DNA from: Elusimicrobiaceae bacterium | Lineage (GTDB): Bacteria; Elusimicrobiota; Elusimicrobia; Elusimicrobiales; Elusimicrobiaceae | Assembly (NCBI GenBank): GCA_017417005.1 | Contig: JAFQAA010000040.1 | Span: 1-32,880 of the forward strand | Length of the DNA stretch: 32,880 bases | Direction: 5' to 3' | Shown here: positions 29,172 through 29,434 of the stretch, in pieces | Layout: each line of letters opens with the position of its first letter | Position numbering within the stretch: position 1 is the stretch's first letter | Notes under the pieces: generated by a model | Seen by the model: the letters and a program-made list of their open reading frames with translations, nothing else | Database searches by the model: none | What the model was told of the DNA's origin: nothing | Position numbers and translations under genes: made by a program

Positions 29172-29180
29172 TGGTAGAAT
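29172..29180 (+). promoter_or_regulatory. extended -10 promoter of the tRNA-Val locus
   Basis: TGG followed by TAGAAT at 29175-29180, just past the NUDIX gene. The start near 29187 would place both the tRNA-like copy and tRNA-Val in one transcript. The -35 region is weak, as tolerated by extended -10 promoters. Confidence 0.45.
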
Positions 29181-29201
29181 ATATAAAGTAGAGATATTTT
29201 T

Positions 29202-29270
29202 GGGCAGTTGGCGCAGTGCTTACTAAATAAAATCGTCCGCCAAACGCGGACGCGCTGGCCACGAAGCCCA
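29202..29270 (+). pseudogene. scrambled tRNA-Val-like copy
   Basis: The first 17 nt (GGGCAGTTGGCGCAGTG) equal the 5' end of the tRNA-Val gene 98 nt downstream, and two flanking Ts match as well. It then diverges: the D-arm is replaced by an A/T-rich insert, but CGTCCGCC, CGCGGA and TGGCCAC recur in the same order as in the tRNA. A perfect 7-bp hairpin (CGTCCGC, CAAAC loop, GCGGACG, 29234-29252) replaces the anticodon arm, and GCCCA at the end can pair with the initial GGGC. There is no T-arm with TTCGA, so it is not a working tRNA. Confidence 0.65.
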
Positions 29271-29297
29271 TAAGAAATGAAAATTAGAGATTAAGCA

Positions 29298-29316
29298 TTG
29301 GGCAGTTGGCGCAGTG
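29298..29316 (+). repeat. 19-nt direct repeat with 29200-29218 (tRNA 5' end)
   Basis: TT plus the first 17 nt of tRNA-Val occur identically at 29200-29218, marking duplication of the tRNA 5' half. Confidence 0.85.
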
Positions 29317-29371
29317 GTAGCGCGTCCGCCTCACACGCGGAAGGCCACAGGTTCGAACCCTGTACTGCCCA
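29300..29371 (+). tRNA. tRNA-Val (anticodon CAC)
   Basis: A 72-nt cloverleaf: acceptor GGGCAGT/ACTGCCC with discriminator A, D-arm GCGC-AGTGGTA-GCGC, anticodon stem TCCGC/GCGGA with loop CTCACAC (anticodon CAC, reading GUG), a short variable loop, and T-arm ACAGG-TTCGAAC-CCTGT. The 3' CCA is not encoded, so it must be added after transcription. Confidence 0.93.
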
Positions 29372-29413
29372 TTTTTAATAAAGCAGTTAGAAAGAATATT
29401 GGGGCGGGGAAAT

Positions 29414-29428
29414 CTGCCCATTTTTAAT
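29414..29428 (+). repeat. 15-nt repeat of the tRNA-Val 3' end
   Basis: CTGCCCATTTTTAAT here is identical to 29365-29379, the last bases of tRNA-Val plus its 3' flank. It lies in the leader of the MarC gene. Confidence 0.8.
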
Positions 29429-29434
29429 GAATAT

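Follow-up and report, generated by a model that had tools for sequence, protein, structure and literature searches.

Repeats linked to tRNA genes (TLRs) were first described in E. coli in 1978, and their function was unknown until three rRNA-linked members were shown to be sRNAs, according to a 2021 report (PMC8144298). There, E. coli TLRs such as the tyrTV repeats with RttR are described as lying downstream of the tRNA and as carrying an 18–19 bp copy of its 3′ end. In the E. coli K-12 sequence, tyrV was found to be followed by three 178-nt units, and each of them contains a 19-nt copy as well as a 10-nt antisense of the tRNA 3′ end. The RrA, RrB and RrF RNAs of the E. coli rRNA operons arise when transcription reads through a terminator, and both Hfq and CsrA interact with them (PMC8144298).

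The window analyzed here is a complete stretch of 32,880 nucleotides from an Elusimicrobiaceae bacterium (contig JAFQAA010000040.1, forward strand). A tRNA-Val(CAC) was called in it by ARAGORN at 29299-29372 and matched by the Rfam family RF00005 at 29300-29371 with 72.8 bits. The tRNA looks intact; its neighbors are an ORF with a NUDIX domain on one side and an ORF of the MarC family on the other. Between a promoter-like box and the tRNA, an element was found at 29200-29269, and a repeat of the tRNA 3′ end follows the tRNA. The features of the locus are as follows.

29175-29180, plus strand: possible −10 box TAGAAT upstream of the element, read from the letters; no exact TATAAT is present here
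29200-29218, plus strand: sense copy of two leader nucleotides and tRNA nucleotides 1-17, identical to 29298-29316 in 19 of 19 positions at a spacing of 98
29219-29233, plus strand: insert, 15 nt here, with the consensus CTTGTAACATAAAGTT over 40 aligned units; within the stretch that is conserved beyond the spacer
29234-29252, plus strand: apical hairpin P3 (from fold and repeats), whose 5′ arm equals the 5′ strand of the tRNA anticodon stem and whose 3′ arm is the complement
29246-29256, plus strand: antisense strand, an inverted repeat complementary to tRNA positions 29319-29329 in 11 of 11 positions
29253-29269, plus strand: 3′ closing strand of the predicted fold, with a GCCC end predicted to pair with GGGC at 29202-29205
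29207-29261, plus strand: match of the covariance model of the leader element with 55.7 bits (next best in the window 13.4), the sequence of the window being one of the 40 units from which the model was built
29270-29299, plus strand: spacer between element and tRNA; such spacers are poorly conserved between loci
29300-29371, plus strand: tRNA-Val(CAC), from ARAGORN and Rfam
29365-29382, plus strand: tRNA 3′ end with flank, first copy, from repeat comparison
29383-29413, plus strand: remainder between the 3′-end copies, resembling the post-tRNA flank of the sister genome G074 (locus L154, compared by eye), with the repeat core absent
29414-29431, plus strand: second copy of the tRNA 3′ end with flank, probable relic of a tRNA-linked repeat, 17 of 18 positions identical to 29365-29382

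A preliminary description of this locus had reported a 19-nt copy of the tRNA 5′ end followed by ordered fragments, a perfect 7-bp hairpin and a GGGC/GCCC closure, all of which could be reproduced. The fragment at 29234-29248 matches 29323-29337 with 80% identity over 15 nt, the hairpin is formed by 29234-29240 and 29246-29252 (7/7 pairs), and the predicted fold joins 29202-29205 with 29266-29269. This fold has an energy of −31.8 kcal/mol (z = −3.79), and none of 200 shuffled sequences was as good. The term "scrambled" used for the copy does not apply, since its parts follow one another as they do in the tRNA, an insert and a snap-back strand being added. The exact 11-nt antisense at 29246-29256, which had gone unmentioned, covers the 3′ strand of the tRNA D stem and the 5′ strand of the anticodon stem. 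The tRNA was the sole Rfam family matched in the window; between 29180 and 29300, and likewise at six related loci, no other family, RtT RNA included, reached its gathering score. A known Rfam RNA was ruled out on this ground.

The element resembles the E. coli TLRs in that these lie in tRNA operons, occur as one to several tandem units and contain a short exact copy of the adjacent tRNA end; moreover, the tyrV units carry an antisense of the copied end, as do the Elusimicrobiaceae elements. In contrast to the TLRs, which are located downstream and copy the 3′ end, the upstream element copies the 5′ end, precedes the tRNA and was found only at tRNA-Val(CAC/GAC). The 18–19 bp of the 3′ end of an upstream tRNA, by which TLRs are defined, are therefore absent from it, the copy being that of the 5′ end of the downstream tRNA. 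In its sequence plan the upstream element is a mirrored TLR, with the order copy, antisense, tRNA instead of tRNA, antisense, copy; it follows the same plan outside the TLR definition. With RrA, RrB and RrF it shares the character of a conserved structured RNA, here predicted, that is cotranscribed with a stable RNA and copies its end, but those RNAs are located downstream with a terminator on either side, carry a copy of the 5S rRNA 3′ end and have known protein partners (PMC8144298). 3′ETS-leuZ is comparable as a functional RNA cut from a pre-tRNA transcript; it derives from the 3′ side and pairs with two other sRNAs, and no tRNA copy is mentioned in the description consulted (PMC8144298). 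The tRNA-Other RNA of Bacillus cereus is likewise a tRNA-like element inside a longer regulatory RNA, but is a predicted whole pseudo-tRNA at an island border, whereas the Elusimicrobiaceae leader mimics a 5′ half and stands before a tRNA (PMC3399842). A 5′ version of tRNA-linked repeats was not met in a limited literature search; absence from print is not claimed.

For 30 of the 36 loci with an element, an exact TATAAT was found within 45 nt upstream of the first unit, whereas only one of the 36 has it in the spacer between element and tRNA. The window locus belongs to the six without an exact TATAAT. Among tRNA-Val genes without an element and with enough upstream sequence, TATAAT was present within 60 nt in 103 of 127. 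These positions support the view that the element is a leader, probably transcribed from the tRNA-Val promoter within the pre-tRNA. By its place between a −10-like box and tRNA-Val, it would thus belong to a tRNA operon, as TLRs do.

The preliminary description had considered that the locus could be unique to its assembly, but the same arrangement is present in other genomes. In an exact 17-mer search of GTDB genomes, the matches listed included Elusimicrobium-type contigs in which the tRNA start occurs in one to three exact copies. In the source genome itself, tRNA-Val(GAC) is also preceded by an element, in which the start of the GAC tRNA (one change in the first 17 nt) and its anticodon-stem strand are repeated. 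When 149 genomes of the order were searched at the DNA level, 37 had matches, several of them to the tRNA itself only. For a survey of the family, a 17-nt probe reaching from the base before the tRNA to nucleotide 16 was used, and at least 12 of 17 positions had to match. Among the matches listed, and with genera g1 and g6 covered in part, the element was found at 36 of 164 tRNA-Val(CAC/GAC) genes in 28 of 88 Elusimicrobiaceae genomes. Broken down by genus, again among the matches listed, it precedes 2 of 16 CAC and 1 of 11 GAC genes in g1, 10 of 63 CAC and 20 of 69 GAC genes in g2, 3 of 3 GAC genes in g3 and 0 of 2 GAC genes in other genera; eight genomes have it at both genes. Of the 36 genes, 30 are preceded by a single unit, four by two units and two by three. 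Chance similarities far upstream in G033 and G025 were left out of the element counts and scored as genes without an element, as was the degenerate copy of G035 (14/17), which enters only the per-unit scoring of arms and antisense.

The units of genus g3 (G067-G069) are included in the survey counts and stand outside the alignment, the model and the conservation test. Located before tRNA-Val(GAC) at L404, L405 and L406, they have the same copy and a different middle, in G068 with a 10-nt antisense to the tRNA D arm, and are missed by the covariance model. They are perhaps an independent version of the same plan. At another locus (L217, genome G005), a tRNA-Val(GAC) has a CAC-like upstream flank and acceptor copy before a GAC-type hairpin, a probable case of recombination between CAC and GAC leaders.

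The covariance model, built from 40 units, gave 49 matches in 28 of 340 genomes of the phylum. All 47 strong matches, most of which are the units used for building it, lie in 26 Elusimicrobiaceae genomes, and for 42 of them a tRNA-Val gene or a stranded tRNA 5′ half begins at most 291 nt downstream of the match end. The other five were not placed beside a tRNA: two lie in G033 near a contig start and three on contig C22 of G029. In the latter genome, contig C34 has two further matches in an array near the contig end, and the elements of the two contigs may come from a single array that was broken. At the loci of the two weak matches, G332 and G081, no tRNA is present. A dispersed mobile element was rejected as an explanation of the upstream type, since no strong match was obtained outside the family in the 340 genomes. 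A pattern for the insert matched 16 of the 340 genomes, 14 of them within the family; the two outside were G254 and G315, and the reversed pattern used as control also matched a few genomes, once each. An initial strict pattern had found only 2 of 90 genomes because it was limited to the insert type of the window, and one strict pattern gave no match in viral contigs. When 32, 26, 23 and 24 distinct tRNAs, a part of the tRNAs of each of four genomes, were scanned for upstream copies of at least 10 nt, these were found only at tRNA-Val(CAC/GAC) and at one tandem tRNA-Thr pair. The GAC copy of the source genome fell below this threshold (8 nt exact) because of its one change.

Conservation was analyzed on the last unit per locus, with the 17-nt copy removed from the core, one unit with Ns excluded and CAC pairs with very short spacers skipped. 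For GAC loci, the median pairwise identity of the core was 0.793, compared to 0.446 for the spacer and 0.414 for shuffled sequences (21 sequences), and the core exceeded the spacer in 205 of 210 pairs, which are not independent. The same limit applies to the CAC loci, where the values were 0.755, 0.528 and 0.486 and the core was higher in 36 of 36 pairs (11 sequences). Decay as a pseudogene was ruled out by this result: the core is far above the spacer in identity and does not show relaxed constraint. In the 40 units, 87.5% of the cells of a three-helix structure were paired, compared to 33–52% when the structure was slid along the alignment. Covariation amounted to 0.140, compared to 0.093 in shuffled alignments (reached by 0 of 500 shuffles), whereas two coarser measures do not stand out, being reached by 98 and 75 of the 500.

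Two of the six P3 base pairs show changes on both sides. The best-placed P3 arm was paired in 6–7 of 7 positions in 41 of the 42 units for which it is defined, with a loop of 2 to 7 nt. The element also follows its own tRNA: the variant stem GTTCGC of the CAC tRNA in G057 is mirrored in both hairpin arms, and the tRNA variants GCAGGG (G038) and GGACAG (G029 and G036) are copied in the respective elements. An exact antisense run of at least 10 nt was present in 29 of 45 units; perfect antisense is thus not strictly kept. Taken together, conservation and covariation indicate that the upstream element is very probably a selected structured leader and not a decaying pseudogene. The earlier idea of a structured RNA cotranscribed with the tRNA gains comparative support from the conserved core, the covariation and the −10-like box that precedes the element.

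On the other side of the tRNA, the copy of its 3′ end and flank noted in the preliminary description was confirmed 49 nt further on (29365-29382 and 29414-29431), the first 15 positions being exact. Its reading as an attachment-site duplication left by an integrase was not sustained. In the sister genome G074 (L154), a second tRNA 3′ end with flank closes the unit after the tRNA, at a distance of 194 nt from the first that leaves no room for an integrase gene; at L047 two such copies are 201 nt apart around a TLR-like core as in G074. These TLR-like units rule out the attachment-site reading, and no mobile element lies between the 3′-end copies in either G074 or L047, the relatives compared at this locus. 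By comparison by eye, the short repeat of the window is best read as a relic of a TLR-like unit that appears to have lost its core.

A search with the downstream repeat matched 35 of 40 relatives, in part through the included tRNA alone. Of 20 regions fetched from repeat hits, 17 have a same-strand tRNA upstream, within 200 nt of the core in 15; these regions were hand-picked from rows matching the repeat part, and for one (G074, contig C20) the nearby tRNA had been noticed beforehand. In 109 loci, 84 of which were centered on tRNAs so that the sample is not neutral, 46 core hits were obtained. Of these, 31 are distinct units with a same-strand tRNA of one of 18 anticodons at most 200 nt upstream; the remaining 15 include second tandem units. 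Before the core, the 31 units have an antisense of their own tRNA 3′ end with a median exact run of 11 nt, compared to 5.9 nt for tRNAs of other amino acids (higher in 30/31), and after the core a copy of their own 3′ end with a median run of 10 compared to 5.3 nt (higher in 27/31). The copy reaches at least 18 nt in only a few. Units are single, or in tandem at L264, L268, L270 and L466, within the one to five described for TLRs, and in the main the downstream family fits the TLR description. TLR-like units after tRNAs were seen at L150, L241, L257, L264, L268, L270, L447-L466 and others; they have an own-tRNA antisense, a related core and a terminator in duplicate, and often also a hairpin whose loop resembles AACTGCTT. 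After tRNA-Glu(TTC) at L245 (G009), a second repeat type was noticed by eye, with a different core, the same antisense-then-copy layout and a 19-nt copy.

Altered tRNAs were found at 11 of the 164 tRNA-Val genes among the matches listed, and ten of these are GAC 5′ halves ending in or just past the anticodon loop. The eleventh is a tRNA-Val(CAC) of G004 (L298) that seemingly lacks the T arm through a deletion between the anticodon arm and the 3′ strand of the acceptor stem, and is either a pseudogene or an assembly error. Seven genomes have a stranded half together with an intact GAC gene on the same strand, at a distance of 6.9 to 17.8 kb. For five of these pairs, 4–8 leader nucleotides and the first 37–40 tRNA nucleotides are identical; the remaining two pairs differ in the base directly before the tRNA, where the comparison ended. 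The intervals (L468-L474 in G026, G024, G064, G007, G066, G075 and G020) are integrative elements of about 7 to 18 kb in tRNA-Val(GAC); what their two ends share is the tRNA 5′ half, and at the far end the intact tRNA follows a different leader. Among ten proteins scanned across the examined elements, phage-type integrases are encoded by L468 and L469 and restriction-modification genes are present in L468 and L471; L469 has a weak restriction-endonuclease match. An integrated element in sister genomes, as had been anticipated, does therefore exist, at tRNA-Val(GAC) and with the 5′ half of the tRNA as shared sequence, but none lies between the 3′-end copies in G074 or L047. In G024, G026 and G066 the leader element remains with the stranded half. 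This points to an exchange of promoter and leader at the working tRNA-Val(GAC) upon integration, which could partly explain the patchy presence of the element. Restoring a tRNA from its 5′ side, promoter included, seems unusual.

Next, the influence of the leader on the fold of the tRNA was predicted; equilibrium folding is a crude guide that ignores tRNA tertiary structure, modification and co-transcriptional order. Over 35 loci, including the truncated GAC tRNAs of G024, G026 and G066, the median cloverleaf pair probability was 0.82 for the tRNA alone and 0.35 with its leader. In 31 loci without these three, the mean was 0.369 for native leaders compared to 0.571 for leaders shuffled with base composition alone preserved, and the native value was lower in 28 of 31. 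The expected number of pairs is 5.96 between leader nucleotides 1-7 and the tRNA, and likewise 5.96 between the tRNA 3′ acceptor strand and the leader. In the minimum free energy structure of the window, the copy and the tRNA 3′ end form an acceptor stem while the antisense pairs with the D and anticodon 5′ strands of the tRNA, and the mean pairing over 31 loci agrees in direction. The cloverleaf did not return when the copy was masked (median 0.26 compared to 0.35 unmasked over the 35 loci; values below 0.5 in 26 and 32 of 35, with three truncated tRNAs in each count), so copy and antisense cannot be separated by role in silico. With the spacer or the insert masked in place of the copy, the values were 0.38 and 0.32.

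RNase P recognizes the stack of acceptor and T stems. In the proposed model, the leader would act in cis and switch the precursor between two folds. In state A, copy and antisense would pair in the leader hairpin and the tRNA would fold normally. In state B the first 7 nt of the copy would replace the acceptor 5′ strand on the tRNA 3′ end, with the antisense keeping hold of the displaced D/anticodon 5′ half. Since RNase P reads the acceptor-T stack, such a precursor would be cut at the copy and yield a tRNA still bearing leader sequence, and the element would thereby tune the amount of mature tRNA-Val. The first nucleotides of the copy, which are unpaired in many leader folds, would match the tRNA because they replace the acceptor strand. 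Against a switch, 128 of the 164 genes among the matches listed have no element, which is consequently dispensable, and recombination between repeats can also keep the 17-nt copy identical. A switch in cis is somewhat less likely than not. The conserved leader together with the cis fold switch is the best explanation of the whole, to which we give slightly less than even confidence.

The main rival is a trans-acting sRNA: RNase P would free a stable leader hairpin of 70-100 nt that binds proteins or RNAs, and the level of the leader would report tRNA transcription, as proposed for E. coli RrA, RrB and RrF. A precedent is given by these read-through products with their Hfq and CsrA contacts (PMC8144298), and the conserved core and structure fit this explanation. 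In G024, G026 and G066 the only tRNA sequence behind the element is a stranded 5′ half, followed by terminator-like hairpins (by eye), while an intact GAC gene is present elsewhere; a unit can therefore outlive its tRNA. However, the stranded units may be recent leftovers of integration, and a trans-acting RNA has no need for an exact match to the neighboring tRNA, down to isoacceptor and strain variants. We consider this rival unlikely.

Still less probable is a mutational by-product, in which copies and snap-back strands arise at tRNA ends through repeated tandem duplication and template switching, while unequal crossing-over at short repeats alters the unit number and keeps the 17-nt copy identical. 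The varying unit number (one to three per gene) and the patchy presence across genomes are in line with it, and the CAC-type flank and acceptor copy at the GAC gene of G005 point to recombination between loci. Yet the insert and the hairpin, which are absent from the tRNA in that form, are conserved and P3 is kept in 41 of 42 units, whereas the spacer is near shuffled identity. Very improbable is a site acting at the DNA level, where the hairpin would mimic the anticodon-stem inverted repeat as a decoy or secondary attachment site for tyrosine integrases of tRNA-Val(GAC). The hairpin 5′ arms do equal anticodon-stem strands, and the elements in tRNA-Val(GAC), two of which encode phage-type integrases, share sequence ending in or just past the anticodon loop. 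However, a crossover overlap should be fixed while the loop varies between 2 and 7 nt, and insert and closing stem stay unexplained. A plain decaying duplicate of the tRNA gene with an att-type 3′ duplication, which the window alone resembles, is scarcely credible, being largely refuted by core versus spacer identity, with covariation between genomes also against it and the downstream repeat accounted for by the TLR-like unit in G074 and L047.

Upstream and downstream units alike may follow one rule, with an antisense between the tRNA and a second copy of the facing tRNA end acting as a general fold switch of pre-tRNAs. The spare copy would take one strand of the acceptor stem, and the antisense would hold the displaced half. 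This sense-antisense-sense arrangement was seen in the Elusimicrobiaceae and at one E. coli locus, and the generalization is rather unlikely. If true, it would give orphan TLRs a common function, of which the Elusimicrobiaceae leader would be the 5′ version.

The conserved and covarying 5′ mirror that matches its own tRNA shows that copying a tRNA end beside the tRNA can be selected, and the shared antisense strand suggests a common and testable mechanism in tRNA biogenesis. Judged from these comparisons, the tRNA-Val leader of the Elusimicrobiaceae, once seen as a scrambled leftover, is probably a working part of making that tRNA.
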